Origin: a virus
Virus record (IMG/VR): IMGVR_UViG_3300030109_001083
Location: 1-20,228 of that record
DNA length: 20,228 nucleotides
Reading direction: 5' to 3' (one strand)
Shown: positions 2,600 through 20,228 of the stretch, in pieces
Position numbering within the stretch: the first letter of the stretch is position 1
Layout of the letters: each line of letters opens with the position of its first letter
Translations under genes and position numbers: made by a program
The notes under the pieces: generated by a model
Databases searched by the model: none
What the model saw: only the letters and a program-made list of their open reading frames with translations
What the model was told of the DNA's origin: nothing

Positions 2600-2606
2600 G
2601 GTGGAT
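2600..2606 (+). promoter_or_regulatory. ribosome-binding site that fixes the chaperone start (GGTGGAT)
   Basis: GGTGGAT lies 3 bases before ATG 2610. An in-frame GTG at 2601 falls inside this site and would itself have no well-placed ribosome-binding site, so ATG 2610 is the better start. Confidence 0.65.
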
Positions 2607-2609
2607 AAA

Positions 2610-2996
2610 ATGTTAAACGAAAATAAAAAAATTGTTAGTGATAAGAACTTGCTGTTTGCGGCAAATGAACCGAAATTACACTATCTCAAGATAAGTGAGA
2701 ATAGTGATGAATACCTGAAAATATGGATTAAAGAACCAACTTGGCTACAAGTAGAACAAGGAATGGCTTCTGTAATGAATATTAATCCTAAAACACAGGA
2801 GATGGATATAGATTTAAATAATTTATACCATTATATGATTGATAACTTTGTAGAAAAAACTGAACCTAGTTTATCTAAAGTAGATTTAATTAGGCTAAGT
2901 CCATACTTAGGAAGTCAATTAAAAGATATACTTCCTAATCCCCTTCAAGACCTAGCGGGGGATGATACAAAAAACGACAAGTCAGAGACACAATAA
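2610..2996 (+). CDS. tail assembly chaperone, short form (lambda gpG-like)
   Basis: The unshifted product is 128 residues and ends at TAA 2994-2996. It contains helical, acidic segments (TWLQVEQGMASVMNINPKTQ; LSKVDLIRLSPYLGSQLKDI) and shows no membrane segment. In siphoviruses the protein between tube and tape measure is the G-type chaperone, which coats the tape measure and is absent from the mature virion. The position, the size and the frameshift at its 3' end all fit. Only six codons follow the slippery site before the normal stop, as in lambda-type systems where most ribosomes make the short form and a minority shift. I base the identity on this arrangement, since these chaperones diverge too far to be recognised by sequence. 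Confidence 0.8.
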   Translation: MLNENKKIVSDKNLLFAANEPKLHYLKISENSDEYLKIWIKEPTWLQVEQGMASVMNINPKTQEMDIDLNNLYHYMIDNFVEKTEPSLSKVDLIRLSPYLGSQLKDILPNPLQDLAGDDTKNDKSETQ

Positions 2997-3193: not shown

Positions 3194-3194
3194 T
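3189..3194 (+). promoter_or_regulatory. ribosome-binding site of the tape-measure gene (GGTGAT, contains upstream stop)
   Basis: GGTGAT lies 3 bases before ATG 3198 and contains TGA 3191-3193, the stop of the frameshifted chaperone. Ribosomes finishing the long chaperone form therefore terminate on the tape-measure ribosome-binding site. Confidence 0.65.
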
Positions 3195-3197
3195 TAA

Positions 3198-4988
3198 ATG
3201 AGTAGTTTCGAGGATAAAGAAAAACAAGCAAAGGGGTTAACCCGACAACTTGAGATTTTAACCGAAACTACTGATAGTTTTGCTTTATCTGCTATTAATG
3301 CATCTAATGAAAGTAAAAAATGGACAGCAGTTTCAAGGTTTTTATCAGGTTCAGGATTATGGAGATTACAAAATTATTTACGGGGAGCATTACAAGTAAT
3401 GTCTTTCTTTAATGATAGTCAAAGAGAAGCAATAGAAGCAAATATAAAACAAGCACAAACTTTATCCGATTTATACGATGTTCAAGAAGAAAGTCAAAAA
3501 CAAATGGACCTCATTAAAAAAATAAAAGATGAGGGTATTGAGTCTATTAATAAAGAAATAGCCGCTAATGATGAATTAGCAATAGCAATACAAAAACAAT
3601 ATAAAGTTATTAAAGGCACTATTGACCAAGCAAGAAAAGATAAAAAAATACAGATGACAGAAGAACAAGCACATGCAGAAGCCATTAGAAGAACTGCAAC
3701 TGCTTACGAATATGTAGGGACACAAATTAAAAAAAATATGGCTAGTAGGGTCAAGGGTTTTGCTAAATCTATAGCGAGAGAAATGAAAGTAAAAGCAAAA
3801 ATAGAAAAAAGGGCGACTTTAGAAGCAAGAAAACAGAAAATAAAAGATAGACAATATGATATTGATACTCTTGAACGTTTAAAGGAAGAAGGAGTTTTTC
3901 GTTCTTTTAGCCTTGAAAAAAGAAAAGAAGAACAAGGTAGGTTATTAGGGCTTAAAACTCAACAAAAAAGGGCTCAAGAAAGGGTAAAGAAAGAAGAAAA
4001 AGAGATTAGCCCCCTTACTAATATAATGGCGGGATTTAAACCAATTCGTAATATGATGAGAGGTTTATATGATATATTTACTTTAGGCCCGTTTTGGAAA
4101 AGTGTATCTCTTATATCAAAAAAAGTTCAAGATATGGGGGGCTGGATTAAGGGGTCTTGGAAGTTAATAAAAACAGTTGGAGGCTTCGTTAAAAAATATA
4201 TGCTACTAGGATTAATGTTTATTCTTGGTGCTTTCCTTGTCTTTTCTTTTATTAGAGAAATTCTAAAAAACGCAGAAGTTATGAATACAATAATAACAGC
4301 GTTGCAAGAAATATTCGGCGCTGTCTTTTTAGTGCTTTCTGGATTCTTCGATATATTCCAAGCATTCTTTGGTGGAGGAACTTTTGGTGAAAGATTAGGA
4401 ACATTATTATCTGGGTTTATGAAAATCTTTGGTGGTTTAGGGGCTATAATTTTCTCTGTAGGAAAAGGAATATTAAAGTTAGCAGTTGGTTTACTAATAG
4501 GAATAGCAACAACTTATATTAAAATAATTGTAGGGTTATTTTCGGCATCTACGTGGGTAGGTATTTGGGATAAACTAAAAGAAAAAGTATTCAATAAATT
4601 AGGAGAGTGGTGGGCTAATCTTGACATAAAGGGTAAATTACGTGGGTTCTTTGCTGGATTAATTAATAAAATGTTAGGGCCGATTAATAAAATGTTAGGT
4701 TGGTTTGGCGCTGGACCAATCCCAATGATGGCTAAAGGTGGAATTGCTAAAGGTGGTTTAACTTTAGTTGGAGAAAGAGGACCAGAATTAGTTAATTTAC
4801 CTAAAGGAGCAAGGGTTCATTCAAACGCTGAAAGTAGAAGAATGGGTGGTAATACTATTAATGTAAATGTAAGTGGTAGAGTTGGAGCATCAGATTCAGA
4901 GTTAAGAGATATAGCAAAGAAAATAGGACGAATGGTGAATACGGAAATAAATAGAACTACTTCCTCGTCTACTAATGTGAGGTATTAA
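3198..4988 (+). CDS. tape measure protein
   Basis: This 596-residue protein sets tail length and is ejected with the DNA. Residues about 90-275 are highly charged and predicted helical/coiled-coil (for example EQGRLLGLKTQQKRAQERVK). Hydrophobic membrane-type segments lie near residues 333-352 (LLGLMFILGAFLVFSF), 375-391 and 410-450. The C-terminus carries the hallmark GERGPELVNLPKGARVHSN near residues 525-543, preceded by a Gly/Lys-rich stretch, and ends in a polar tail. At about 0.15 nm per residue, the usual rule for tape measures, the tail would be near 90 nm. I see no lysozyme or peptidase domain. A tandem seven-residue repeat INKMLGP/INKMLGW occurs at residues 489-502. It follows the chaperones, its expected partners. 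Confidence 0.93.
   Translation: MSSFEDKEKQAKGLTRQLEILTETTDSFALSAINASNESKKWTAVSRFLSGSGLWRLQNYLRGALQVMSFFNDSQREAIEANIKQAQTLSDLYDVQEESQKQMDLIKKIKDEGIESINKEIAANDELAIAIQKQYKVIKGTIDQARKDKKIQMTEEQAHAEAIRRTATAYEYVGTQIKKNMASRVKGFAKSIAREMKVKAKIEKRATLEARKQKIKDRQYDIDTLERLKEEGVFRSFSLEKRKEEQGRLLGLKTQQKRAQERVKKEEKEISPLTNIMAGFKPIRNMMRGLYDIFTLGPFWKSVSLISKKVQDMGGWIKGSWKLIKTVGGFVKKYMLLGLMFILGAFLVFSFIREILKNAEVMNTIITALQEIFGAVFLVLSGFFDIFQAFFGGGTFGERLGTLLSGFMKIFGGLGAIIFSVGKGILKLAVGLLIGIATTYIKIIVGLFSASTWVGIWDKLKEKVFNKLGEWWANLDIKGKLRGFFAGLINKMLGPINKMLGWFGAGPIPMMAKGGIAKGGLTLVGERGPELVNLPKGARVHSNAESRRMGGNTINVNVSGRVGASDSELRDIAKKIGRMVNTEINRTTSSSTNVRY
4662..4699 (+). repeat. 21-bp tandem duplication in the tape measure gene
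   Basis: ATTAATAAAATGTTAGG occurs at 4662-4678 and again at 4683-4699, a 21-base period. It encodes the consecutive heptapeptides INKMLGP and INKMLGW. It looks like a recent in-frame duplication of one heptad. Confidence 0.75.
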
Positions 4989-4989
4989 G

Positions 4990-5796
4990 ATGACAACATT
5001 TTCTAATTCAGCGCTAGAGTCTCATTACGTTTATCTTGATTTAAGTGCAAGAAGTCCTGTTAGTGGTTCTACTGATTCTATGAAAAACTTTCAAACAAAT
5101 AGAATAGCACTTAAATGTGATAATGTTTCTATTTCTACATCTAAAAACATAATGGCCTTTCCTACTCCAGCGATAGGTATTGCTACTGGTGAATCAGTTT
5201 CTCTTGGTTTAGATTTAGGGATGGCTACAAAGGCTATTAGTCTTAGTGGGATTATAACTGAACAGTATGTTCAAAAACAGTTTAACTCTGGTGATTTTGC
5301 AACAGGTCTAACAGACCCTACAGATGCAACTATCAATATGACAGCAAGTGATGGAGATGGTAGTGATATTAGAGTATATATGACGGCTCAAGAAGTCGCT
5401 CAACTAATACATTCTTATGTGGATTCATCTTTTATGCAAACACAACAGAACTTAAACAGATTAGTTGTTTTAATTCCATCAAGAGTAGGACCAGACTTTT
5501 TATATCATACTGAGGATGCAGGGGGTAATACATTATCAACAACAGTTGGTTCTACCTTAGCATCTGAAAGTTGTCCTTTAATTCCTTTTACTTATGCTGT
5601 AAGAGATAAAGGTGGTAGTGAATTAGATGCCTCAATGAGTGTTCCAATAACTAAATTTCCAAAACCCATAGATGTTAGTTTAAATGAAACGCAAGGATTA
5701 GATGGGTTTGTTCGTTCATTCGATACTACATTTGTTGGGGGTTCTCCTTTTATTGAATTTAATTTATCATTTGAGATAGCCTTTGCAAGTATGTGA
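4990..5796 (+). CDS. probable distal tail (Dit-like) / tail-tip protein
   Basis: This 268-residue beta-rich soluble protein is placed directly after the tape measure, where siphoviruses encode the distal tail protein that forms a ring joining tube and tip. It starts at ATG 4990 with GAGGT at 4979-4983. Strand-rich features include GESVSLGLDLGMATKAISLS around residues 58-77, followed by GIITEQY. It ends with a beta stretch (FIEFNLSFEIAFASM), and a helix (MTAQEVAQLIHSYVDSSFMQ) lies near residues 131-150. No catalytic motif is visible. The pattern 'I.L.G.I' in the N-terminal half is common in distal tail proteins but weak as proof, so the call rests mainly on order and fold type. Another tip component is the alternative. 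Confidence 0.5.
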   Translation: MTTFSNSALESHYVYLDLSARSPVSGSTDSMKNFQTNRIALKCDNVSISTSKNIMAFPTPAIGIATGESVSLGLDLGMATKAISLSGIITEQYVQKQFNSGDFATGLTDPTDATINMTASDGDGSDIRVYMTAQEVAQLIHSYVDSSFMQTQQNLNRLVVLIPSRVGPDFLYHTEDAGGNTLSTTVGSTLASESCPLIPFTYAVRDKGGSELDASMSVPITKFPKPIDVSLNETQGLDGFVRSFDTTFVGGSPFIEFNLSFEIAFASM

Positions 5797-5797
5797 T
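5793..5797 (+). promoter_or_regulatory. ribosome-binding site that fixes the LamG-like gene start (GTGAT)
   Basis: GTGAT lies 3 bases before ATG 5801 and contains TGA 5794-5796, the stop of the preceding gene. The in-frame TTG at 5783 lacks such a site, so ATG 5801 (MSYRIYSGNKK) is preferred. Confidence 0.6.
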
Positions 5798-5800
5798 ATT

Positions 5801-8254
5801 ATGAGTTATAGGATTTATAGTGGAAATAAAAAGTCATTAGTATTTCCTATTATGGGTGACGGTTATGTTCATTTAGATTATAGTAAACATATACCCTCTG
5901 GAACTGAGACAACACAAGTTGGAGAAGGTTATGGATTATGGGGGCATAAGAGTTCTTTTACAATTGAAGGTATTATAACTCCTTATGATATAAATGGATT
6001 TGGTTGGACTTTAGGTGCTGACTTTATGACTAAAAATAGTGCTGGTTCTGCGGCTGGAACTCCTTCTATTAGCACTAATGTAGATGCAACTAATTTAGAA
6101 TTACCTTTTAACGATAAAGCCTTTTCAGCAGTAGGTAATGTAGGAGTTGCTAGTTCTCGTTCATCTGCTTATTTTTCTCATAATCATGTTGCTTATTTAG
6201 GAGTAGCCATTAATAATTCAGTTGTTGATATTGTATTGTCTAATGTAGAAGACTTAAGAGGAAATAACTATATTAGAATAAATAATGAAAAAATGGAAAT
6301 AGTATCTATTGAAAAAACATTTGGTAAATATACTAAAGTTAAAGTCACAAGGGGATATGATGGAACTACTGCTACTGCTCATGCTTCTCAAGATAAAGTT
6401 TATACAGATAATAGATTATATCAAAAAATGACATTATTTTATAATAACAATTGTGAGTTTTATTTAAAGAATATGACTAGAACAAATATGAATCAACCCG
6501 CTGAATATAAAATTGGCTGTGTAATAAAAGGTAAAGATAAAAATGGAAACACTAGAACAGTAACTACTGAAAGTATTAATCCAGTTATAACTGCTGATAA
6601 AGAATATTATGGTGCGACAATAGAACAAACCACTCAAACAACGAGAACATTCGGTAAACCAGTTTATCTGAATAGCGAAGATAGAGTAAAATATCATAGA
6701 TTAACAGATGATTTTGTGTTAGATTGTGAACCTATACTACCTTCTAATCAAAATATTACTACTAATGGAACTGTAACTACTTTAACTTTTAGTGGTCTTA
6801 CTATAACTTTAGGTGGTTCTGGTAGTCCTACTTGGACTGATTATGTTAGTTTAGCGGCTGGAAGGGCATTAATAAAAATTATAGGAAGTTCTAGTAATGA
6901 TGGGTATTATACAGTAAGGGCTTCAAGTTCCACTGTTCTTACAGTTGACAATACTCATGGTTTTACTGGATTTACGAGTGAATCTGTAGCAGACGCTACA
7001 ACTGTAAAGTTTTATTATCATACTAAAACCATTAGTGATAGTTTTAGTTCTTTGAGTTTTATGAGAGCAGGTTACACTAGTTATTTATTTGATGGAGCAT
7101 CTGCAATAGATATGTCAGAAAAGTTATGGAGAGGAAGAAAATTATATGGTCAACAACATTCTTCTGGAACTTATTCTGCTTCTGTTGAACAAAAAGAACC
7201 AACTTATCTAGGTTATGTCGAAGATATACATTATTCTAGCGTCCTTGATTATGTTTTTATGGCCGCTTGTAAATTAGTTAAACCTATAAGAACTACAACT
7301 GAAACTAAAATTTATGTTGATGATGCTAGGGATATATCTGTAAATGATAAATTAAGATTAGGAACTGAATTGATGAAAGTTACTGGTATTTCTGGTAATG
7401 TTCTTACTGTCGTAAGGGGGGATATTAGCACAACTGAAGTCACTACTTTTGTGAATGCTTTTAATGGCTCAACAGATAATCAATATTCTGGTAGTGGGTA
7501 TGGTTCTAATGCTAGTGTTCCAGTAAAAGAAGAATATAATTTTTCAAGAACTTTATACAAAGTTATTCCATATGGGACATTAAATGGATTTAAAATGGGA
7601 AGTGAATCGGGTGCGGCTTCTGATGAATTCGGTTTACATTTATTTGGGGAAACTTGGAAAGAAGCATCTTATGTTTTAAGACCATTTCATTTGGCTATAG
7701 GTTATGACGTTAATGCTAAAAAAATAACTTTAATGGTTGATGGAGTTCCAGTTTCAACTCAAACTTTTAATGAAGGAGATTTAAGAATAGCAAATATAAC
7801 AGGAACAGGTAATACAACTGTAACTATTACTACAATAGACCCACATGGTTTAACTGTTGGGGATGAAGATGCTGGTGAATGGATTTCTCTTGATTTAACT
7901 ACTGACGCTAATGCAAGTGGAATTTGGAAAGTTCAAGATATTATAGATGGTAATACATTTGAAATAACAACCCAAATTAATGTAACATGTAATGATGCAC
8001 AGGGAACTTTAAAAGATGTTACCATTAGAACTAATAATTCTATAGTGGAATTTGAATTTGATGCTACTGATTGTTATTTAGGTTCTAATGGTAATTCTGT
8101 TTTAGAAAATAGAAGGGCTTCTCAGTTTATGGGAGAGATGCACGAATTTACTATCACTAAAGAGTTTAAAGATAATTTTAATAGTTTAGATACATTGTTA
8201 CCTAACTTTAGAAACACTTTACTTTATTTTAGATTTGAGGGGGATAATCCATGA
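5801..8254 (+). CDS. large tail-tip protein with interrupted LamG/concanavalin-like fold
   Basis: This 817-residue beta protein has LamG-type signatures far apart: SSFTIEGIITPYDINGF near residues 51-67, LRPFHLAIGYDVNAKKITLM with VDGVPV near 626-651, and FMGEMHEFTITKEF near 776-789. LamG domains are jelly-roll lectin-like folds that bind glycans or proteins, so surface binding at the tail tip is plausible. Between these parts sit small beta modules: two of the 'VxRG' type (residues 148-201 and 501-547) and two of the 'NDGYYTV' type (354-384 and 692-724). The gene overlaps the giant hub gene by four bases (ATGA), so the two are coupled and probably assemble together. No membrane segment or enzyme motif is seen. 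The LamG call is by pattern; its interruption by modules is inference. Confidence 0.6.
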   Translation: MSYRIYSGNKKSLVFPIMGDGYVHLDYSKHIPSGTETTQVGEGYGLWGHKSSFTIEGIITPYDINGFGWTLGADFMTKNSAGSAAGTPSISTNVDATNLELPFNDKAFSAVGNVGVASSRSSAYFSHNHVAYLGVAINNSVVDIVLSNVEDLRGNNYIRINNEKMEIVSIEKTFGKYTKVKVTRGYDGTTATAHASQDKVYTDNRLYQKMTLFYNNNCEFYLKNMTRTNMNQPAEYKIGCVIKGKDKNGNTRTVTTESINPVITADKEYYGATIEQTTQTTRTFGKPVYLNSEDRVKYHRLTDDFVLDCEPILPSNQNITTNGTVTTLTFSGLTITLGGSGSPTWTDYVSLAAGRALIKIIGSSSNDGYYTVRASSSTVLTVDNTHGFTGFTSESVADATTVKFYYHTKTISDSFSSLSFMRAGYTSYLFDGASAIDMSEKLWRGRKLYGQQHSSGTYSASVEQKEPTYLGYVEDIHYSSVLDYVFMAACKLVKPIRTTTETKIYVDDARDISVNDKLRLGTELMKVTGISGNVLTVVRGDISTTEVTTFVNAFNGSTDNQYSGSGYGSNASVPVKEEYNFSRTLYKVIPYGTLNGFKMGSESGAASDEFGLHLFGETWKEASYVLRPFHLAIGYDVNAKKITLMVDGVPVSTQTFNEGDLRIANITGTGNTTVTITTIDPHGLTVGDEDAGEWISLDLTTDANASGIWKVQDIIDGNTFEITTQINVTCNDAQGTLKDVTIRTNNSIVEFEFDATDCYLGSNGNSVLENRRASQFMGEMHEFTITKEFKDNFNSLDTLLPNFRNTLLYFRFEGDNP
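6242..6403 (+). repeat. VRG-type beta module, copy 1
   Basis: This stretch encodes NNEKMEIVSIEKTFGKYTKV followed by KVTRGYDGTTATAHASQDKV. It matches the copy in the giant hub (8770-8940) in the segment RGY-x-x-TTAT-x-H. Confidence 0.7.
6860..6952 (+). repeat. NDGYYTV-type beta module, copy 1
   Basis: This stretch encodes IKIIGSSSNDGYYTVRASSS, then a strand VLTVDN. It has the pattern of a strand, a G/N turn, 'G-aromatic-x-V', and a further strand. Confidence 0.5.
7301..7442 (+). repeat. VRG-type beta module, copy 2 (diverged)
   Basis: This stretch encodes DDARDISVNDKLRLGTELMK then VTGISGNVLTVVRGDISTTE. It keeps the order strand, ND/GD turn, 'E-(K)M', strand and 'V-x-RG', but has lost the TTATxH tail. 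Confidence 0.55.
7874..7972 (+). repeat. NDGYYTV-type beta module, copy 2
   Basis: This stretch encodes NASGIWKVQDIIDGNTFEIT, a close match to the 'G-aromatic-x-V ... t-F-x-I' pattern found in many phage tail proteins. Confidence 0.5.
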
Positions 8255-11200
8255 CAAAAGGTATGGGTAACATTACAAATGTTTTTGCTATGGGCAAAGG
8301 TAATACCGAAGGCACAACAGTTTCTACTACTCCTGATACTGCTGGTAATTATACTGGTAACTTTTTAGAAAAAGCAATGTATAAAACTCCTTTAAATCCA
8401 TTATTGTGTAGAGGAAATCTTAGTGAGGATTTTGCAGATTTTAATGTTACTCAAGCGGCTACAACAGAACAGCCTCTCGGAGCATCTTTAGCGGCACTTG
8501 CTAATACTACTGGTATAAATAGTTATGAAATACATAAAGCAGATAACGCTACACTAACTAATTCTGTAACTGGTATAAATAAATCTAATAGTGGAACTCA
8601 GACTTATTCTTCTGTAAATAGAAAATATCCAGATTCTACAACTATAAGTGACCACTTATCTAATTTAGAAACTACTAGAGGTAATGTATTAAAAACTTAT
8701 AATTATGATACTAATGTTGGTCAAAGATTAGTCACAGATATAACTACATTAGGTGAAGTATTGGATGCTACTGAAACTCACATTTTAGTAGCAAGTATAA
8801 GTGGTATTTCGGCTGGAGATATTATAGTAGTTAATAATGAAGAAATGTTAGTAGAAATATCACATAGTTCACATTTACATGTAGTTAGGGGATATAATCA
8901 CACTACTGCCACTACTCATTCTAATGGAGATAAAGTTTTATTAAAAGATAATGTTAGTAATTTATGGGTTTTAGTTTATTCGGATGACCCTAATGCTCAT
9001 CATTTTGCTAAAGTTACAGAGATATTAGAACATGATATATGGGGAGATGCTATAGAATTTAGTCCGTCTTTAGGTATTGATATTGCTAAAGATACTAAGT
9101 TTGCAATTTTTGATTCTAACCAATCCTTCTCAGAAATAGATGCAGATAACCAGACTTTAGTTGCTTGTGGTTATGGGTTACAATCTGACGCTTCTAATAA
9201 TAGACATTATCTAAACACTCATGTTTCTCGTCCTTTCTTTTATTTCTTAAATGGTGAAGATAAATTAGAACCCGCTACAAGATATGTTTTAAGAAGTTCT
9301 TTTTGGGATGGCTCATCTCACACTTATACTTACTCTACATTTGTTACTGACCAAGAATACGGAACAGATATTATTGATTATGGCCCTTACACTATGGAAG
9401 CAACTTTAGTAGATATGATGTATAAAGCAGACAGCCCAGCCGCTATGAATTTCTTAGAATATAGTGATAACAGTTTAAATTTAGAAGAAAATGGGGGGAG
9501 TGCAGATACTATTACGGTAGCATCTGATACTAGTTTTGATAATCTATATACAGACTTAGATGGAACAGAAGGAACTAATTGGGGTTTAACAGGTATATTA
9601 AGAGATTCAAGATTTAGTATCATTAGTAGTGGAACATCGGGAAATAATGATGTTTATTGTGTAGATAGCGCAACGGATTCTACTTCTACAACTCTAACTT
9701 TAGATGTTGGAGATTTAACTGCGGATGACGATGTAGGCACAACAGCGGCATTAAGATTAAGATTCTTAGCCCATTCAGTAGATTTAGACCACAATAAAAT
9801 GTATTGTGCTTTTGATTCTTCTAACCATTTAAAAAATTCATTTAGAATGGCTCATAGACCTAATGATAATGGTAATTATTACGCTCATAAAATTGGACAA
9901 ACAAGATATATGCATTATACTGATTCACCGTTAACTAATAATATTTCTCCTAATGCTATGGAGATGATTGATTATGAATCTGTTACTGCTAGTGGTGGAT
10001 ATGTGGATATTGTATTCGCTGATACACAAAAGATACTGGCTAAGAAAATGAAAGAAGGCGACCCACTTTATATTCACGAAATAATATTTAATGAAGAACA
10101 GGGGTTAAATAGAGTTTCAGAAATTGGAACTTTTAATTATTTTATTGGAGATACAACTCTAACCGTTGATAATTTAACTGAAAACGAAGATATAAGATTT
10201 TTATTAATGAGTCCTATTCCAGATTCAGAAACAGATACATCAGGAGATTTTGACCCCTTATATGATGGATTTACAGTTGATGTTTCTGGAACTTTATATC
10301 ATATAATTCCAGATAGAATTACAAATCCTTCGGGTGGTTCTCAGACTATTACTCCTAGATTATGGAGAAAGGCTACTGATACAGAATATAATACAACCAC
10401 GTTGGCGGCAGGTTCAGTTCCAAGTTTTAGTGCTAAAGGATATAGAAGAAAGTATTCTTTTATTGCTGATAACATTATGACTGATATACCTATTGATTCC
10501 CATATTTTAGATTATAGTTTAGATTATGATGGTGATTCTGCCGCACCAACTAATAGAGGTTTAACTACATTTGATAATTTATTCTCCGAAGGTCTTGATG
10601 CTCAAGGCACTACTATAAATGTAGGTTCTAACGTTATGGAGAAAGAAAGTCATAGTAGAATTAATAATATTAATTTAGTTTTACGGGGAGGTTCATCTAC
10701 AGGGCATAGACTACATGTTGAATACGGAGATAAATATAATAAATTTATTAAACTTAAAACTCACCTTAAAGATGAAAGGTTTTTAGAATCTTATAATAAA
10801 ACTGATTTTCTTCCTTATTCTTATGGTTTGTCTAATGTATCTTTATATGGTTATCCTATTAATACAGGGAGTGTTCCTGTTAGTGGTAGTGAAAAAAGAT
10901 ATGATTTAAGTGAAAATGGCTTAACTACTAATAACCATGTTAGAGGAACTTTATCTTATTTAGATTATTTTAAAGGAACTTATGATATAGAAAGAAAAGT
11001 ATTCTCTGGAGTTATTGAAAGTATAGAACAAGTTGTAGAAGATGGAATGTTTAAATTAAAAGTTAGAGGAAGAAACGATGTTGGTAAATTACTAGGACCA
11101 ATAGTAAATAAAGATTTTAAATTTACAGAGGACATTGTTTATTCAACAGTAGGACCAATAGCAAGGACGGCTTTTTATGGTAATATTAATCATGGAACTG

Positions 11201-14200
11201 ATAGGGGAGTTTATGAAGTTGGTGCGACTGAAATTATAATTGATGTAGATGGTGATAGTTTAACTAATGGGGCTAAAGGTGATTTATTATTTACACATTT
11301 AGGGGTTTTTATAGGTAGAATATATAACATAGTAGGTTCTGATGGTTCAGCAACATTATCTGGTAGTAATGAACCATACACTATTACATTAGAAGAAGGG
11401 CTTCCTACTAGAATAAAAGATGTAGAACCAATTTATATCTCTGCTCAATTATCTTTAACAGATATTGTTCCAGATAATATTTCTGATACATCAACTGATG
11501 CCTCATTAACTTCACAATTTATCAGAGGTAATACTATTAGTTTCGCTAAAGCATTAAGTTCTAACCCCTTTTCCACTACTAGAGTTAACTCTTTATTAGG
11601 TGCTAGTGATAAGGGAATTATTTTCAATAGTGGTAATTCTTTGACTTTAACAGATGGTGCGCCAGTAGGAGAAGGTAATACATTAGTAGGAACTTCTAGT
11701 AGTTCTCATCCGTTGGCGAAGGGATATAGTATTCATGCTATAGATGGTATAGATTATGATTTTCCATTTTACTGTCATTTAGCAGATGAGATAACTGATA
11801 AATATACTGTTGATTATGTTAATTTACATACTGTTAATTCTTTAACTGATTACGATATTATCAGTGTTACTAATACTGATAATGAAACATTAATAGAAGT
11901 TGCTCCGATTTGTCCAGCAGTATTAGGACGAATAGATGATAACCCATTAGATAGTAGAGATAAAACTTTAGTTAGTATGGGAACTTTTCCAGATGCCACA
12001 GAAGTTACGGGCGCTGATTTACTTCCAAAAGGATATAATGGTATTTTCCAATATAGCACTTGGATAGAAGAATTAAATGAAGGGGATTTTATTTTTGATT
12101 CTGATGGTAATTTATTTGGTAGAATAATAGATATTAGTGTAGGCGCTAGTAATGGGTTACTAAATAATAGAATCGCTTTTACTTTAGATAGGCCGTTGTT
12201 TAAAAACGTCACTAGTAGCACTACTATTCATAAATATTATTTCGCCGCAAGTCCACCACAATATATAGCAAGTGATGATATTGAATTTAATTCTTTTAAT
12301 AGCACTGGGATTACTGGTGGAAGTGAAAGTACTGATTTAGATTATAGAGTATCTACTATAGAATCTTCAGATGCTACTACTAGATTATTTTTAGATAAAT
12401 TAGAAGCAGGGATGAGAATAAAAATAGAAGGACATGCGTTTAGAGATAATAATGGAGTATTTACTATTTCTCATGTTTTTACTGACGATAATAATAAATT
12501 TGTAGTTTTTCACTCTAGGAAACAGGGTAGTGGGTATAGAGTTGGAGATGATACCAGTAACAATTTAGGTTATGGTGGAATGACAGATGACGGAGAAGGG
12601 GATAATGTTAGAATAACTGTATTAACAGATTACTTTACTCAAGGATTATATTTCTTAAACACTCAGGGATTAGGACAAGGGGGAGTTGTAACTTTAGTTA
12701 ATAATTCTCTTTCTAGTCCTAATGCGGCAGATAATATTTCTAAACCCATTAAATGGTGTGGAGGTTTATATCATTATATAACTGATAATAGTGTTGCTTC
12801 AGGAAGGGGTAGTAACTCAGATGGATATAGTTATTATAATCCAAATGCTTCTGCTCATAGCATATTTTCTGATATGATAGATAGATATGGTAATACTAAA
12901 TGGAGATATTTTGGATTACAAAGAGGTAAATATTTATCATATATTAATAGAAGAAGAAAAGACGGATTAATTAAAGATGCCTATACTACAGAAAAGGGTA
13001 GAGTAAATGGTTATGCTACTGCTTATAGAATAAGTGATGCTAAGTTTGGTTCTAATAAAATAATGAAATATCCTTATGGTTATCACAATAATGATTTTGC
13101 ATGGTCTGTTAGAATGTATGATGATAACGCTAATGCTTATGTAGAGTTATTCGAATCAGAAAATAAAATTAGAACTCACCCTTATTTCTTAGAATATCTT
13201 TCTCCAGAATCAAGAGACTTTAGACCAGTAATGGGAAGTAACTTTACTGACTTTACTAAACATGGAACTACAGTTACTTCTCCCGAACATTCCGATTATA
13301 GGCTTTTACAATATCCTAGATTTATGCCTAGATTACATGATAACTTTAGAGGGGGAGACTGGCAAGAAGATACAGAAAGTCCTCTTAATAGTGATTTACC
13401 ATCAACTTTATTACAATATAGAAGATGGAAAACGGATTCAACTAATGCTTATGATTACGATATAGATTATGCAACAGGGGATGCTCCTACTTATCTTGAC
13501 CCTGCCGCCGCTAATGATAGTATATTCACCACAAGTTTAGCGAGTCAATGGGTTAAATTAAGTGGATGGCCCGATAGAAATAATAATAGAACATTTAAAT
13601 TATCTGCTCTAAGTGCAGATGTTTCTAATAAATTAACATTAGATATTAGTAAACCACCGTTTTCTCAAATAGGAACTCAAGGAAGTGTTAGTAATTCGGT
13701 TGCTGTGGGAGGTTCACAAGATGACTCTACTGGACATGAAGAAATTAGTGTTCTTTATCCTCCTTGGATTGGGCCAAAGTTTGACGGTATAACTAGAGCA
13801 AAAGACCACTGGGAATTACCAGACCCTAAAACAATGAGATGGTTTATCTTTTCTCCATCTGATTTATACCCTGATTCTATGTCAAGAAAAAACCATATAG
13901 GTTATTCAGGAACAGTTGATAGCACAACTATTAGTAGGAGTTTTACAGATTATAATTTATTATTAAAAGCCCCTAGTTCTTTTTCATCTTCAAATGTTTC
14001 TCATGAGTATTATGAAGGTTCTTTAGAAGAAGAACAGGAAATAGATGACCAATATGAATCTTTACCAATTAGTAGTGCATCTATTGTTCCTTCTAAAATG
14101 AAACGATTCGGATTAATGCGTTTAGTTGATTGCACTTATGACTGGCATTTTAATCTCATAGACCCTGAAAGACTACCAAGTGATATGTCTAAACTTAATA

Positions 14201-17200
14201 CTCCTAACTTTGAATACACTAGGTATCAACCATTAAAAAGACTTAACTTATTAATTTCTGATTATACTAATAGTGATACGAGATTAACTGTAAGTGCAAA
14301 CCCAACTAGTCTAGTTACAGCGGGCGACCAAGTATTTACAGATAAAGGATTTTATTTAGGTAAAGTTAAAACAAGAATAACTGGTGGTACTCATGCTATT
14401 GAATTACAACAAGCCGCTAGAAAACCCATATTACAATCAAGTGGAACTGCGGGAGAATATCATGGTTATGTTTATGTTTGTGGAGATGGAGTCACAACAA
14501 TATCAACACAAGATTATTATGATTCCTTTTATAGATTTCAAGTTAAAGGTAGAGCAGGGGAGAGTTCTTTTACAGAAGTTAATTTTTCTCAACCACTTAA
14601 TATGTTACAGCAAATGTGGAATGGGTGTTATCACTACCCAGAAGGCACATCAGTTGTGGGGAGTGTCGCTGGAACATCCTTTACTGATGAAATTGTAACT
14701 GATAGCGCCAACTGGGAATTTTGGCAGATACCCTATGGGGTTACTGATGGGGCTTCGGGAAGTGTTAGTTTAGGGCATAAAGGATGGTCAATAGCAGATA
14801 ATGATTATAGAAAAAATAATTTAACAAGTAGTGATAATCAAGATGTGGATGCTAATATATCATCTGCTAAATTTTTTAATCATTTTAATAAAAACTTTTT
14901 AGATGTCGTCTCTAAATCAGCATATGATTCTTATTCTAATTTAGTAGGTATTACAGCCGTTAGTCCATTTATTGCCTTACCTCCAGCATTTAGAACCTTT
15001 TATGGAACTGCTTATTCTAATGCATCTACTGGTAAAACAATTAACGTTATGCAAGAAAAGAAATTCATAACAACTAAAACTGAAACACCCGCTGTAACTG
15101 GCGTAACTAAAAACGGCACGTTAAGTGCTGATGGTGGAACTTCAATAGTTGTAAATGGTAATGATGCAGATGACCACTTTTCGGTGGGAGATATATTATA
15201 TGATAATACTGGGGCTGTTTGTGGTTTAATTAAAGCAATACCAGATGCAAATACTATAACTTTATATGAAAATAATTTAACTACTTTATCTGACACTGAG
15301 GATTTGAAGAAGGTTACATTTAATCCAATAAATACTGAATATACTCACCCTTCTAATATTTTAGAATGGCAACAATTAGGGGGTAATCCTTACGTTGGTT
15401 GTCAAGTGATTTCTTTAGGAAGATATAATGTTGAAAACTCTATAGGTGTAAATATTCATACAGGCGCTAGAAGTCAAGTATGGGATTCATGGCAGAAAAA
15501 CATGTTAGAACATTTCCCATATTCTAAAACTAGTTCAACTGCTATTCCAACGGCGGATAGTGAAGCAGAATCTAATATACCTTATGGGAATGGATTTGGT
15601 TTAATAACTGGTAGTGATTATTATTCTGATGTAAGTGGGGAGTATTCATTTTCGGTAACTAAAGGTAATTCTTTTTGGGGGTATGGTGTTTGGAATGCTG
15701 ATACAGAAGGGTATTATGGTGGTCATGTAGGTGATGGAAAAGGATATGTTGCTGATGGTGTTTTTGGTGTATTTCATCCAATATTACATGTAGGCACTAA
15801 TAAAAAATTAACTTTAACAAATGGAGATGTAGATGAATCAAGAAAAGGGATATTTGCATTTAATTCTGTTAATGGAAATACTAAAGAAGGGGTTTTAAGA
15901 TTAACTTCTGGTCCAGATGATTTAGAAGATAATAATGCTTGGTTAAATTTTGTGGATTTAACTGGTATGTATTTAGTAGGTAATATAGGAACTACCGTTA
16001 AAGGTAACTCAACTAGATTAAATTATGCCCCTTTTAATGGGGATGTATATGATATACCAGCATGGTTTAATTATAAAGAACGTAGTGATAATAAAATAAA
16101 CTTAAGACCTGATGTATTTTTTATGAGCGTTACAACCACTAGTGGGAGTGCTGTTGTTAATTATGGACCAAGCGCTTCAGGTAGCCCCGCTAATGCTAAA
16201 TTAGAGGCTGGAGATGTTTTAACTATAATAGGTGGTAATGGAGTAAATTATAGAACAATTTCTTCTGTTGATACTTCTTCTAATCAAAAGAACTTCACCA
16301 TGAGTGCAACTGCTAGTGCTAGTGGAACTATAGATGTAGCAATATATAGAGCATCTGCTTCTGCCGCAGGGGGTTATACTTCTATGGCTGATACTATGGT
16401 TGACCCTAATCATATTATTTATGTTAAAGAGCATAGAAGAAATATAACTGGTAAAACCGTTGCTCATGAATTATTATTAGATAACGTTCCTTATAATTTA
16501 TCTGGAAATGTTCAGTTTTTTGATAATTATAGAGTTATGCGACCTGCTGAAACTTGTTTATGGAGAAATTCTCCAGAAGAAATAGATATGTATAAGTTAT
16601 CAGCACAAACCACAAAGATGCCTCAAGAGGATAAAATGTATAATTATGTTCCCTCTCTATATAGAGTGCATGATGATAATTCTATTGCTGGTATTGATAA
16701 TACTGCTGAGAATATATATCTTGAAGGTAGTGTTGGTTCTAATGAAGCAGTAATGTCAATGTATGCGGCAATAGATATGGACGCTAGACATTCACAATAT
16801 ATCAGCATAGGGAATGTAAGTGCGGTTAATAATTCAAGTATAATAACTAGTAGTTCTTTATTCGGTAATTTACAAGAAGGAGATACAATAAAAGTGGGTA
16901 ATCAAAAGTGTTATGTTAAGCATAAAACTAGTGTTTCTTCCATAACTATAGCGGGTAAATATGTAGGCTCAACTGCTACTGTTGCTTGTAATTTGTTAAA
17001 TAATACCTATACAGTTTTAAGAGATTATATTCATTTGTTTAACCCAACTGGTAATAGAAATACGTTTAAATCTGGTTCATCTTATAATATGTTATTAACT
17101 GATGGATTATCAAAACAGAAAATTTCTATGACTCCCGATGTAGATTACTATGATGATAGAGCATTATGTAGATTATCAATTGGTAAAATAGAAAATGATA

Positions 17201-18222
17201 TGCTAGGTATAGTTTCTTTTGGTGAAACGTTTACACTTAAATCTAACAAGCCAGCAAAATCAGAAAATTATACTTCTGCTAAAATAGGTTCAACTGTAAT
17301 TATAGGGCAAGAAGTTGAGGACGTAATAAATAATTTATTAGGTTCAGAAGATATACAATATGATATACAAGATGATAGAGAATATCCATATTACATAGCG
17401 CCTAACTATCAAGGAGTTGACATATTTAATGCGGCTAACTTTGCGGCTAAATATAAAGAAAAAGAAATTAGATTAGATGAACTAGGTATATCTTTAATTA
17501 AACAAACTAACGTTAGAGATTATAGACCAATTGTTTTATCTTATGATAATACAGATTTAAAGATTATAAGTGTAACTAGAAACAAATCAACTTTTGACCT
17601 GTATAATGAAATCATTGTCTATGGGAATGGATTGAAAGCGATTAAGCGAAACCGCAAGAGTATAGAGAAGTTTGGTAAGAAAACTCTTGAAGATGTAAAT
17701 ATGGAACTTATTTCACAAGATGATGTTGATTCGAGAGCCAAGACTTTACTAAAAGCACACTCTGAAGGTGATGATAGATTTACAGTTAAGATGGCTAAAA
17801 CTGGAATTGAGTTAATTAGGGCTGGAGACATTATTACTTTGGATTTTCCAGCAGAAGGAATTGATAGCGGCCAATATAAAATATATGAAATTAGACGTGA
17901 GTTGATGGGGTTAGTTGAATTAGAAGTAGGAACTTATCGTAAAGATTTAGCCAATAGATTTGCTGAACTATCTATGTTAAATAAATCAAATGCTTCTTCA
18001 ATTAGAGGTTCCCAGTTCACATCAACTACTGCTCCTTTGGACTTTTTCGATACTGTTAAACTGAAAGAATTAAGACTAGTTATTAAGAAGATTAGTTTAG
18101 CGGACGAGGACGCATTCACTATAGGTTTCCAAACTTTAGAAGCAAGAAAATTAGATTTCGGCACAACAATGGCCCCATTAGACACAGTAACAACAATAAT
18201 AACAGATGAGGATTTGATATGA
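8251..18222 (+). CDS. giant baseplate hub / tail-tip protein (3,323 residues)
   Basis: The ORF starts at ATG 8251, with GAGGGGGAT at 8237-8245, and ends at TGA 18220-18222. Two regions look like a hub scaffold. Near residues 911-960 there is KVFSGVIESIEQ followed by FKLKVRGRNDVGKLLG, the pattern of the first hub domain in D/gp27-type proteins. Near residues 3037-3240 there is IQYDIQDDREYPYY, KYKEKEIRLDELGISLI, KTGIELIRAGDIITLDFP and YKIYEIRRELMGLVELEVG, the later hub domain. About 2,000 residues separate them, rich in Asn, Ser, Thr and Tyr and carrying four related 'GDxxF...GxxxGxI' beta modules. The N-terminal 900 residues are also beta-rich and contain a VxRG module at 174-230. I see no lysozyme, peptidase or membrane segment. 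The hub nucleates tail assembly; the insertion probably builds an exposed tip. Confidence 0.75.
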   Translation: MTKGMGNITNVFAMGKGNTEGTTVSTTPDTAGNYTGNFLEKAMYKTPLNPLLCRGNLSEDFADFNVTQAATTEQPLGASLAALANTTGINSYEIHKADNATLTNSVTGINKSNSGTQTYSSVNRKYPDSTTISDHLSNLETTRGNVLKTYNYDTNVGQRLVTDITTLGEVLDATETHILVASISGISAGDIIVVNNEEMLVEISHSSHLHVVRGYNHTTATTHSNGDKVLLKDNVSNLWVLVYSDDPNAHHFAKVTEILEHDIWGDAIEFSPSLGIDIAKDTKFAIFDSNQSFSEIDADNQTLVACGYGLQSDASNNRHYLNTHVSRPFFYFLNGEDKLEPATRYVLRSSFWDGSSHTYTYSTFVTDQEYGTDIIDYGPYTMEATLVDMMYKADSPAAMNFLEYSDNSLNLEENGGSADTITVASDTSFDNLYTDLDGTEGTNWGLTGILRDSRFSIISSGTSGNNDVYCVDSATDSTSTTLTLDVGDLTADDDVGTTAALRLRFLAHSVDLDHNKMYCAFDSSNHLKNSFRMAHRPNDNGNYYAHKIGQTRYMHYTDSPLTNNISPNAMEMIDYESVTASGGYVDIVFADTQKILAKKMKEGDPLYIHEIIFNEEQGLNRVSEIGTFNYFIGDTTLTVDNLTENEDIRFLLMSPIPDSETDTSGDFDPLYDGFTVDVSGTLYHIIPDRITNPSGGSQTITPRLWRKATDTEYNTTTLAAGSVPSFSAKGYRRKYSFIADNIMTDIPIDSHILDYSLDYDGDSAAPTNRGLTTFDNLFSEGLDAQGTTINVGSNVMEKESHSRINNINLVLRGGSSTGHRLHVEYGDKYNKFIKLKTHLKDERFLESYNKTDFLPYSYGLSNVSLYGYPINTGSVPVSGSEKRYDLSENGLTTNNHVRGTLSYLDYFKGTYDIERKVFSGVIESIEQVVEDGMFKLKVRGRNDVGKLLGPIVNKDFKFTEDIVYSTVGPIARTAFYGNINHGTDRGVYEVGATEIIIDVDGDSLTNGAKGDLLFTHLGVFIGRIYNIVGSDGSATLSGSNEPYTITLEEGLPTRIKDVEPIYISAQLSLTDIVPDNISDTSTDASLTSQFIRGNTISFAKALSSNPFSTTRVNSLLGASDKGIIFNSGNSLTLTDGAPVGEGNTLVGTSSSSHPLAKGYSIHAIDGIDYDFPFYCHLADEITDKYTVDYVNLHTVNSLTDYDIISVTNTDNETLIEVAPICPAVLGRIDDNPLDSRDKTLVSMGTFPDATEVTGADLLPKGYNGIFQYSTWIEELNEGDFIFDSDGNLFGRIIDISVGASNGLLNNRIAFTLDRPLFKNVTSSTTIHKYYFAASPPQYIASDDIEFNSFNSTGITGGSESTDLDYRVSTIESSDATTRLFLDKLEAGMRIKIEGHAFRDNNGVFTISHVFTDDNNKFVVFHSRKQGSGYRVGDDTSNNLGYGGMTDDGEGDNVRITVLTDYFTQGLYFLNTQGLGQGGVVTLVNNSLSSPNAADNISKPIKWCGGLYHYITDNSVASGRGSNSDGYSYYNPNASAHSIFSDMIDRYGNTKWRYFGLQRGKYLSYINRRRKDGLIKDAYTTEKGRVNGYATAYRISDAKFGSNKIMKYPYGYHNNDFAWSVRMYDDNANAYVELFESENKIRTHPYFLEYLSPESRDFRPVMGSNFTDFTKHGTTVTSPEHSDYRLLQYPRFMPRLHDNFRGGDWQEDTESPLNSDLPSTLLQYRRWKTDSTNAYDYDIDYATGDAPTYLDPAAANDSIFTTSLASQWVKLSGWPDRNNNRTFKLSALSADVSNKLTLDISKPPFSQIGTQGSVSNSVAVGGSQDDSTGHEEISVLYPPWIGPKFDGITRAKDHWELPDPKTMRWFIFSPSDLYPDSMSRKNHIGYSGTVDSTTISRSFTDYNLLLKAPSSFSSSNVSHEYYEGSLEEEQEIDDQYESLPISSASIVPSKMKRFGLMRLVDCTYDWHFNLIDPERLPSDMSKLNTPNFEYTRYQPLKRLNLLISDYTNSDTRLTVSANPTSLVTAGDQVFTDKGFYLGKVKTRITGGTHAIELQQAARKPILQSSGTAGEYHGYVYVCGDGVTTISTQDYYDSFYRFQVKGRAGESSFTEVNFSQPLNMLQQMWNGCYHYPEGTSVVGSVAGTSFTDEIVTDSANWEFWQIPYGVTDGASGSVSLGHKGWSIADNDYRKNNLTSSDNQDVDANISSAKFFNHFNKNFLDVVSKSAYDSYSNLVGITAVSPFIALPPAFRTFYGTAYSNASTGKTINVMQEKKFITTKTETPAVTGVTKNGTLSADGGTSIVVNGNDADDHFSVGDILYDNTGAVCGLIKAIPDANTITLYENNLTTLSDTEDLKKVTFNPINTEYTHPSNILEWQQLGGNPYVGCQVISLGRYNVENSIGVNIHTGARSQVWDSWQKNMLEHFPYSKTSSTAIPTADSEAESNIPYGNGFGLITGSDYYSDVSGEYSFSVTKGNSFWGYGVWNADTEGYYGGHVGDGKGYVADGVFGVFHPILHVGTNKKLTLTNGDVDESRKGIFAFNSVNGNTKEGVLRLTSGPDDLEDNNAWLNFVDLTGMYLVGNIGTTVKGNSTRLNYAPFNGDVYDIPAWFNYKERSDNKINLRPDVFFMSVTTTSGSAVVNYGPSASGSPANAKLEAGDVLTIIGGNGVNYRTISSVDTSSNQKNFTMSATASASGTIDVAIYRASASAAGGYTSMADTMVDPNHIIYVKEHRRNITGKTVAHELLLDNVPYNLSGNVQFFDNYRVMRPAETCLWRNSPEEIDMYKLSAQTTKMPQEDKMYNYVPSLYRVHDDNSIAGIDNTAENIYLEGSVGSNEAVMSMYAAIDMDARHSQYISIGNVSAVNNSSIITSSSLFGNLQEGDTIKVGNQKCYVKHKTSVSSITIAGKYVGSTATVACNLLNNTYTVLRDYIHLFNPTGNRNTFKSGSSYNMLLTDGLSKQKISMTPDVDYYDDRALCRLSIGKIENDMLGIVSFGETFTLKSNKPAKSENYTSAKIGSTVIIGQEVEDVINNLLGSEDIQYDIQDDREYPYYIAPNYQGVDIFNAANFAAKYKEKEIRLDELGISLIKQTNVRDYRPIVLSYDNTDLKIISVTRNKSTFDLYNEIIVYGNGLKAIKRNRKSIEKFGKKTLEDVNMELISQDDVDSRAKTLLKAHSEGDDRFTVKMAKTGIELIRAGDIITLDFPAEGIDSGQYKIYEIRRELMGLVELEVGTYRKDLANRFAELSMLNKSNASSIRGSQFTSTTAPLDFFDTVKLKELRLVIKKISLADEDAFTIGFQTLEARKLDFGTTMAPLDTVTTIITDEDLI
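8770..8940 (+). repeat. VRG-type beta module, copy 3 (in the giant hub)
   Basis: This stretch encodes ISGISAGDIIVVNNEEMLVE then LHVVRGYNHTTATTHSNGDK. It is clearly related to the copy at 6242-6403 in the neighbouring gene. Confidence 0.7.
11221..11409 (+). repeat. GD-F-G-GxI beta module, copy 1
   Basis: The core is GDLLFTHLGVFIGRIYNI, followed by strand YTITLEEGLPT (hub residues 991-1053). Confidence 0.6.
12055..12207 (+). repeat. GD-F-G-GxI beta module, copy 2
   Basis: The core is GDFIFDSDGNLFGRIIDI, followed by strand RIAFTLDRPLFKN (hub residues 1269-1319). Confidence 0.6.
12406..12522 (+). repeat. NDGYYTV-type beta module, copy 3
   Basis: This stretch encodes MRIKIEGHAFRDNNGVFTIS and then NNKFVVFHS, the same strand-turn-strand plan as the copies in the LamG-like protein. 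Confidence 0.45.
13543..13644 (+). repeat. NDGYYTV-type beta module, copy 4
   Basis: This stretch encodes SQWVKLSGWPDRNNNRTFKL then NKLTLD. It is the most diverged copy. Confidence 0.4.
14272..14427 (+). repeat. GD-F-G-GxI beta module, copy 3
   Basis: The core is GDQVFTDKGFYLGKVKTR, followed by strand HAIELQQAARKP (hub residues 2008-2059). Confidence 0.6.
15115..15294 (+). repeat. GD-F-G-GxI beta module, copy 4
   Basis: The core is GDILYDNTGAVCGLIKAI, followed by strand NTITLYENNLTTL (hub residues 2289-2348). Confidence 0.6.
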
Positions 18223-18626
18223 TAACAGATACAATAAAAAAGAAATTAGCCTTATTTTTAAAAGAAACAATAAATGGCGGAACTACAAAATTAGGAACTG
18301 GTGGTGGAGGAACAAATCCTACTGCTACAGATTTAGATGTTCCATTAAGCACTACCGCAACTAACACAGCAACATCTTCTGATGATAAAGTAATAGAAAT
18401 AAAATCAGAATTTTTGGGAAGTAGTTTACAAGGATATACTATTAGAGAAGTAGGGTTTTTCGGAACAGTGCCTAAAGATGACCAATTCGATGAAGCACTA
18501 GATACTAGTTCTCATCCTACATTTACTACTGATACTGTTATGTTCGGAAGAATTAACTTTGATGCAATAGGAAACTTTTCAACTAGTGACGTTATAGATG
18601 TAATATACACAGTGGAGGTTGAATGA
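18219..18626 (+). CDS. tail-collar / fibre-attachment protein
   Basis: This 135-residue protein starts at ATG 18219, overlapping the hub stop as ATGA, with GAGGAT at 18208-18213. It has an N-terminal helix (IKKKLALFLKETINGG), then a Gly/Thr-rich GTGGGGTNPTATD stretch near residues 26-38. Next come strands ending in GYTIREVGFFGT near residues 72-83 and a final beta stretch (GRINFDAIGNFSTSD, then VIDVIYTVEVE). This layout is like the N-terminal attachment domains of tail-collar fibre proteins (P2 gpH-like), where a short 'xxIxExGLF' strand is characteristic. It lies between hub and fibre and probably links the fibre to the baseplate. It is a stand-alone protein here, not fused to the fibre. Function is inferred from pattern and context. 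Confidence 0.6.
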   Translation: MITDTIKKKLALFLKETINGGTTKLGTGGGGTNPTATDLDVPLSTTATNTATSSDDKVIEIKSEFLGSSLQGYTIREVGFFGTVPKDDQFDEALDTSSHPTFTTDTVMFGRINFDAIGNFSTSDVIDVIYTVEVE

Positions 18627-18627
18627 T

Positions 18628-20228
18628 ATGGTAGTGGTTGGTTCAGGTATTTTAAGTTCTATGGGAACAACAGGTACAACTCAATTAACAGATAAATTTG
18701 ATTCACCACATTCAGGTTTGTTTAAAGCGTTACATGCTATGTCTCAAGGTAATTTAGCATTAGATTTTGGTGGTACGGATTCCGCAGGTAATTTTGGATT
18801 TAGCCATACTTATACTGCTCCAACTGGAGGAAGCGGATGGAGTGTTGTAGTTCAAGGTGGAGTTATTTTAAATGAAGGAAAACTAGTAACTATTGCTGAT
18901 AGTTCTAGTCTAACTTTAAATCAATTAGGTTCTGGAACTTTATATCATTGGATTGTTGTAGAGAATGGAGCATCGGTTCTTAGTAGAGTTTCAGGAACTA
19001 CCGATAGTGTTGTTCCCGACATACCAGCACAAGCAACTCCTATATCTTTAATTAAAGTTCAGTCAACAGATACTAGTGGAGATTTAGCGACACAATTCTT
19101 TACAACAACTAAACAATCTAATTCGGTTTCTATCGGTTATGATAATAGTGGAGAATATACTGAGGCTATGTCGATAGAAGGAAGTGCTACTAGAACTTTA
19201 TTTAAAAATAAGATTGCTGATGCTGATATTAGATTCGTATTAGCAGATAATACGGCGGCTGAAAGATTTGAAATTTATAGTGATGATGATTCTGATGGCG
19301 ATGAAGGAGATACTGCTTTATTTACAGTAGATGGATTAGGTGCAACTACAATTGCTGGTGCTTTAACTTTAAGCACTATAGCATCGGGTGATGGTAGTAG
19401 TGAAAATTTCTTAGTAGAAGAAAGCGGAGTAATAATGAAAAGAACCCCTACACAAGTTAGAAGTGATATAGGTGCGGGAACAAGTAGTGTAGCCGCATTA
19501 AATGACTTATCAGATGTTTCATATTCGAGTGGGGATTTAACTATAACTAGTTTAGATAAAATTGTTTACGCTAATGGCGGAAATGCAGAATTAAGTGTAG
19601 TTGCTTCGGGGTCTGGAGTAGTTGGCAGAGATTTAACTATCTCTGCTGGTTCAACAACTGCCGCTTCTGGTGATACTGATGGTGGAGATTTAATCCTTAA
19701 ATCAGGATTGGCTGATGGAACGGGTTCATCTTTTATTGCATTTCATACTTCTACTGCTACTTCTGATGATGCGGTTGCAGAAAGAATGAGGATTCACACA
19801 GACGGTAATGTTGGTATTGGAACTGCAACTCCTTCTGCGCCATTACATATTGTTGATAGTGGAACTGATGATACATTAAGGTTAGAATCTACAGACGATG
19901 GTGCTAATCTTGCTCCAGATTTAGTATTCAAAAGAACTACTGCAACTCCAGTAAACGGAGATTTAATCGGTAGTATTAGATTCTTAAGTATGAATTCTGA
20001 CCAAGATGACGGTGCAGGTACAGAAGCAGAACATGAATTTGTGGATATATATGCTAGAGTAAATGATATTACTACTAATTCAGAATCGGGAGAATTATAC
20101 ATTAGAACTTTTAATGCTGGTACTCAAACAAGAAGAATGGATATGTCTTTATTGAATACAGTTTTTAATGAAGATGGAATAGATATTAACTTTAGAGTAG
20201 AAAGTGATGATGAAACTCATATGTTATT
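18628..20228 (+). CDS. tail fibre / receptor-binding protein (3' end outside window)
   Basis: The frame opens at ATG 18628, preceded by GGAGGT at 18614-18619, and runs without a stop to the window edge, giving 533 complete codons. The first 30 residues form an attachment segment (MVVVGSGILSSMG...). After that come repetitive Gly/Ser/Thr/Asp-rich beta stretches. ERMRIHTDGNVGIGTATPSA near residues 386-405 is the motif found in trimeric beta-helical fibres, often repeated ahead of an S74-type self-cleaving chaperone. A second unit starts at the edge (FRVESDDETHML). I expect more repeats and perhaps the S74 domain just beyond 20228, but that cannot be seen. The protein should bind the host surface. 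Base use is similar to its neighbours, although four of the six GTAC sites in the window fall here. Confidence 0.85.
   Translation, partial: MVVVGSGILSSMGTTGTTQLTDKFDSPHSGLFKALHAMSQGNLALDFGGTDSAGNFGFSHTYTAPTGGSGWSVVVQGGVILNEGKLVTIADSSSLTLNQLGSGTLYHWIVVENGASVLSRVSGTTDSVVPDIPAQATPISLIKVQSTDTSGDLATQFFTTTKQSNSVSIGYDNSGEYTEAMSIEGSATRTLFKNKIADADIRFVLADNTAAERFEIYSDDDSDGDEGDTALFTVDGLGATTIAGALTLSTIASGDGSSENFLVEESGVIMKRTPTQVRSDIGAGTSSVAALNDLSDVSYSSGDLTITSLDKIVYANGGNAELSVVASGSGVVGRDLTISAGSTTAASGDTDGGDLILKSGLADGTGSSFIAFHTSTATSDDAVAERMRIHTDGNVGIGTATPSAPLHIVDSGTDDTLRLESTDDGANLAPDLVFKRTTATPVNGDLIGSIRFLSMNSDQDDGAGTEAEHEFVDIYARVNDITTNSESGELYIRTFNAGTQTRRMDMSLLNTVFNEDGIDINFRVESDDETHML

Follow-up and report, generated by a model that had tools for sequence, protein, structure and literature searches.

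What a single protein of more than three thousand residues does in a viral tail operon is the question raised by the locus studied here. The DNA analysed (the window) is a virus record of 20,228 bases, in which one open reading frame, P0001, accounts for 9,972 of 20,228 nt. The initial annotation had described a baseplate hub of 3,323 residues, half of the window, split by an insertion of about 2,000 residues. The single frame from 8251 to 18222 confirmed the length, and the motifs on which the proposal was based start where they had been placed: FSGVIES at residue 918, GRNDVGKLL at 940, KEIRLDELGISL at 3071 and AGDIITLDFP at 3191. According to our analyses P0001 is probably the tail-tip hub of a magrovirus with a non-contractile tail, in which an ordinary hub is split by an insertion of 2,051 residues, so that the size first estimated for the insertion was right.

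The giant gene and its virus

The window is a fragment and contains only tail genes; among its IMG/VR relatives are contigs of 87-94 kb. The P0001 gene overlaps the neighbouring gene by 4 bases at each end and is located downstream of the tape measure gene in the tail operon, as expected for a Caudoviricetes hub. Features of the window and of P0001 are listed in the table.

Features of the window and of the P0001 protein
Feature	Position (nt)	Strand	Basis
Tail tube protein (Phage_tube_2, PF18906)	786..2432	+	Pfam E 5e-13
Probable tail assembly chaperone	2601..2996	+	phrog_25860, E 0.0025
Tape measure protein	3198..4988	+	phrog_991, phrog_19914
Conserved tail-tip protein, possibly distal tail or connector	4990..5796	+	inferred from position
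P0007, large tail-tip protein, 823 aa, directly upstream of hub	5783..8254	+	
P0001, giant probable hub protein, 3,323 aa	8251..18222	+	ATG to stop, one open frame
Residues 1-901, N-terminal region before hub motif	8251..10953	+	~520 residues common with distant relatives, 28% identity
Residues ~555-630, conserved block	9913..10140	+	conservation
Residues 902-967, probable end of hub domain I (F-G-E-GR-KLL-P motif)	10954..11151	+	gap-free; position on hub profiles
Residues 968-3018, likely insertion, 2,051 aa	11152..17304	+	alignment; L171 core model
Residues 1258-1330, predicted small beta-barrel module	12022..12240	+	L171 piece, model residues ~280-363
Residues 1702-1839, insertion block absent in most distant relatives	13354..13767	+	alignment
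Residues 2050-2120, predicted second small beta-barrel module, approximate boundaries	14398..14610	+	L171 piece, model residues ~662-737
Residues 2593-2702, block absent in most distant relatives	16027..16356	+	alignment
Residues 2869-2916, optional small beta module	16855..16998	+	only stretch with pLDDT above 60 in 2700-3323 model
Residues 3019-3235, putative hub domains II-IV region, homologous to ordinary phage hubs	17305..17955	+	profile comparison
Residues 3236-3323, conserved C-terminal extension	17956..18219	+	alignment
Small protein, weakly like baseplate/fibre-network components	18219..18626	+	
Tail-fibre-like protein, runs off window	18619..20226	+	inferred from sequence style (GNVGIGT...APLHI style repeats)

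The unusual length could have resulted from a fusion of separate genes by misassembly or read-through, and nothing else speaks for such an origin. Since intact homologues of 3,253-3,555 aa and of 2,020-2,819 aa are encoded on independent contigs, the length is genuine and did not arise by fusion during assembly. One single open reading frame with the conserved blocks in the same order is found in many independent contigs, which refutes the fusion and leaves it a negligible probability.

Judged by gene content, the window is probably a fragment of a marine archaeal virus, with close relatives that carry magrovirus genes. Reading the translations of the 87-94 kb relative G001 by eye revealed open reading frames for PolB, a PCNA-like protein, a clamp loader, a TFB-like protein, a chaperonin, a PriS-like primase, an ERCC4 nuclease and an HMG-CoA-lyase-like protein; apart from PolB, these genes were identified by this reading and not by family searches. 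From the set that marks Magrovirales (PolB, clamp, clamp loader, TFB, chaperonin, HMG-CoA-lyase-like protein and a tailed-virus module), PolB was confirmed by model in the records of four of five relatives and the rest was recognised by eye in G001. The assignment to the magroviruses is made because this gene content matches that described for Aoguangviridae/magroviruses, for which non-contractile tails are predicted and which are linked to marine Poseidoniales (PMC10768690). All knowledge about the magrovirus families comes from metagenomics (PMC10768690).

Two neighbouring genes were also compared with their counterparts. P0002 (195 aa, 172-756), encoded ahead of the tail tube gene, shows 82-93% identity between close relatives, far above the conservation of the tip proteins, and is a good probe for the group. 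P0007 has 823 aa in the window, whereas the genes that take its place in distant relatives encode 259-450 aa; growth of a second tail-tip protein therefore seems to have occurred in the clade of the window. Residues 134-211 of P0007 match phrog_7578, which is also matched weakly by hub residues 164-230.

Two conserved segments and their relation to phage hubs

Close relatives of P0001, with lengths of 3,253-3,555 aa, are 50-69% identical to each other and to P0001, except for a few near-identical pairs. A wider search, in which conserved neighbour genes and then a profile of the C-terminal part were used as probes, yielded 116 relatives, of which 80 were kept; 31 distant forms, all between 2,020 and 2,819 aa long, were used for the comparisons. 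No homologue was found in the genome_contigs collection. With the full-length protein, Pfam and PHROG returned weak matches only, tblastn of P0001 and its pieces against phages gave nothing significant, and sequence searches of the PDB gave nothing meaningful. In the 37 aligned homologues, two segments are essentially gap-free, residues 902-967 (66 residues) and residues 3019-3235, and these are the best conserved parts of the protein. Their mean identities to the 31 distant forms are 42% and 37%, respectively, compared to 25% for residues 968-3018 and 28% for residues 1-901.

The C-terminal segment can be related to ordinary phage hubs, as the initial annotation had suggested for its motifs. 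Comparison with a profile of 16 phage hubs of 361-588 aa, which includes hubs of Streptomyces, Rhodococcus and Arthrobacter phages, gave an hhalign probability of 96.8 and an E-value of 3e-10, and comparison with 10 actinophage hubs gave E 9.8e-8; hhalign E-values are those of single pairwise comparisons. The 16-hub set contains the "baseplate hub protein" of Streptomyces phage Samy, whose record note relates it to PDB 1WRU, which we take to be Mu gp44. A profile comparison with four actinophage tail proteins covered 190 columns (probability 91%, E 1e-6), and PHROG tail families match the C-terminal part. The Pfam family YQBQ (PF24032), presumably a hub family, is found above cut-off over this part in the relative L171 (E 2.4e-6), where only positions 166-293 of 294 match; P0001 itself stays below the cut-off. 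The actinophage hub Orchid gp26 contains the same family (E 3e-10) and also matches two PHROG baseplate-hub families. Tblastn with the C-terminal part of another relative, L110, gave matches to minor tail, tail and J proteins at E 0.04-3, which are weak leads to actinophage tail proteins. An AlphaFold2 model of residues 2700-3323 made with close relatives reached a pLDDT of 35. Altogether, the profile comparisons support the identification of residues 3019-3235 as hub domains II-IV.

The motifs had been thought to be consecutive parts of one hub, which requires that residues 902-967 precede the C-terminal segment in ordinary hubs. Their position agrees with this: on Orchid gp26 the N-terminal segment aligns at 297-361 and the C-terminal one at 355-563, so that the two are adjacent, and the same placement was obtained with a deeper profile and in all four actinophage-hub profiles. 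The score of the segment is within the top 1-5% of 131 control windows, with 7, 2, 1 and 5 controls scoring as well in the four profiles. Taken alone, it reached E 0.03-0.2 against hub profiles, which is below significance, and scans against Pfam and PHROG gave no match; with the HCTV-1 hub a similar score was obtained at the wrong place. Joining both segments raised the score with the profile of 10 actinophage hubs to 64.3, compared to 60.1 +/- 0.55 for 95 control joins. With the broadest hub profile there was no gain (77.5 versus 78.0 +/- 0.8) and the 212 control windows were not beaten. Because the score alone is weak and one of the two joined tests failed, residues 902-967 are regarded only as the probable end of hub domain I; the order of the two segments stood, and the likeness of the first to a hub came out weaker than proposed. 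Further upstream, the pattern of residues ~555-630 could, with low confidence and by our own reading, represent the first strands of this domain, which were not seen in the profile test.

Hub domain I could also lie in another protein, since this is the case in lambda and RcGTA (PMC10721106). The C-terminal 300 residues would then be hub domains II-IV, domain I would be provided separately (as by lambda gpL or RcGTA gp13), and residues 1-3018 would be a giant N-terminal extension with no insertion at all. Such an arrangement would fit the lack of significance of the N-terminal segment alone and the failed joined test, and lambda and RcGTA split their hubs likewise. It does not account for a segment that is gap-free and the best conserved in 37 homologues and that all four actinophage-hub profiles place immediately ahead of the C-terminal match, and we consider this arrangement improbable. 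The split-hub anatomy is likely, not proven. The boundaries of the insertion, 967 and 3019, would be located in the region between domains I and II (hdI and hdII), provided that residues 902-967 do belong to domain I.

Structure and content of the insertion

The insertion is present in all 37 aligned homologues with a length that varies between 1,146 and 2,209 aa, and no insertion-free form was found among the relatives. It is shortest in L171, the most compact form (about 1,147 aa), and about 1,935-2,210 aa long in the clade of the window; around 800 residues of P0001 are located in blocks that most distant forms do not have. The region had been described as a Tyr/Asn/Ser/Thr-rich beta region. 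These four residues make up 31.7% of the insertion; since the other proteins of the window have 28.4% and residues 1-901 of P0001 have 33.2%, the insertion is not specially rich in them. Its L171 homologue is beta-rich in the predicted model.

For this homologue (L171 residues 541-1740), AlphaFold2 with 55 homologues gave a model with a pLDDT of 77.8 and a pTM of 0.84, with few helices, and it predicts that the conserved core of the insertion (~1,150 aa) folds as one confident assembly. Model residues 1-24, the end of the N-terminal segment, have a pLDDT below 50, which is to be expected of a domain fragment modelled without the remainder of its domain. Foldseek of the core model against the PDB gave no match at E <= 0.001. 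VIA-align found matches at Z 6-8.1 on two small barrels only (model residues 280-363 and 662-737); those of the first barrel include a tail tube protein, EF-Tu domain 2, T5 pb9 and a JBD30 baseplate protein. At such Z values the resemblance of the modelled barrels may be due to a common arrangement only. Two matches without a name were found in BFVD (E 2e-25 and 5e-7), which we take for unnamed relatives.

We did not adopt the view that a single beta-barrel module was copied to give the optional blocks, as cross-matches were weak (best iE about 0.008 in P0001). A peptidoglycan-degrading (lysin) domain was not found in P0001 by Pfam, and a library miss is not proof of absence. The highest Kyte-Doolittle mean over 19 residues is 1.7, and no stretch reaches the strength of a membrane span.

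Known hubs and a model of the tail tip

Hub insertions as such are known; what is new here is how large this one is, that every relative found carries it, and how it folds. T5 pb3 is one precedent: hdII and an insertion have developed from the linker that connects its two tube domains, and this insertion closes the tube and opens when the receptor is bound (PMC10038345). P0001 would share with T5 pb3 the interruption of the hub domains at the hdI/hdII region and, as predicted for magroviruses, a non-contractile tail. The insertion of the P0001 family is far larger (1,146-2,209 aa), its role in closing the tube is putative, and a sequence match between the two was not found. Lambda gpJ has hub domains II-IV and a similar hdII insertion, into which a further domain, FNIII-A, is set (PMC10721106). 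Unlike P0001, where the extra mass would lie before hdII, lambda has hdI in gpL, a fibre after hdIV and a far smaller insertion.

The closest sequence relatives found for the C-terminal part are the actinophage hubs of phrog_1887 (Gordonia phage Orchid gp26, 585 aa, and a 366-aa form in L132), in which, unlike in P0001, the two hub segments are adjacent and without a large insertion. These hubs occur as a 366-aa form (L132:2501-3598) and a form of roughly 580 aa (L119:2298-4055). The long form is larger by ~215 residues, which lie in the N-terminal part of the hub; this is hub growth on a smaller scale. The Druskaviridae, a related family of archaeal tailed viruses, have a hub of ordinary size (HCTV-1 gp127, 697 aa; the HCTV-16 homologue is annotated as "baseplate hub") that shows no significant profile match to P0001. 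Near its hub gene, HCTV-1 encodes a 1,045-aa protein with a poly-gamma-glutamate hydrolase domain (L074:35758-38895). In the archaeal tailed virus HFTV1 the hub is a trimer from which three globular domains point downward, with a possible role at the S-layer (PMC12494034); the likeness of this hub to that of magroviruses is one of analogy only.

In the model that we favour, hub domain I, the part that connects to the tail tube, would end with the residues around 902-967, and residues 3019-3235 would be domains II-IV of an ordinary hub. The chain would pass from the hub into the insertion, and back again, at the junction of domain I with the first helix of domain II, and the clade of the window would have added optional blocks to the conserved core of ~1,150 aa. 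As in T5 pb3 and lambda gpJ, three copies might ring the end of the tube. Their insertions would together be a closed tip, which would contact the archaeal surface and, once open, let out the tape measure and the DNA. A closed tip of three copies that reaches the host surface is proposed because the extra mass is at the place corresponding to the T5 pb3 and lambda gpJ insertions; trimer state, tube closure and host contact are assigned to P0001 by this analogy. Contact of an exposed insertion with an S-layer or glycocalyx, as originally envisaged, is likewise what we infer only.

The split-hub anatomy is also compatible with another function: the insertion could mainly be a structural shell on which other tip proteins or fibres are mounted, with no host contact of its own. 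A conserved core common to all relatives and a separate fibre-like gene downstream would suit a shell. Against it speaks that conservation is lower in the insertion than in the hub and that the differences are greatest in the optional blocks, as is often so for contact surfaces; we see in the shell a possible but not the expected function. More speculative, and rather unlikely in our estimation, is the proposal that marine archaeal viruses use the insertion as a self-contained machine at the tail tip. It would bind the archaeal envelope and open the tube in place of the plug and the central fibre that bacterial siphophages have, and its assembly of folds would be one not seen in solved phage tails.

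A literature search for magroviruses together with baseplates returned a family profile, which names the baseplate without detail, and one metagenome survey that also contains both terms. Our analysis points to P0001 as the likeliest candidate for the machine with which magroviruses form the tail tip and contact the host, and gives its domain limits in 37 relatives. The expansion of the hub would go far beyond the precedents of T5 pb3 and lambda gpJ, and host recognition becomes testable by expression of the core of roughly 1,150 aa.
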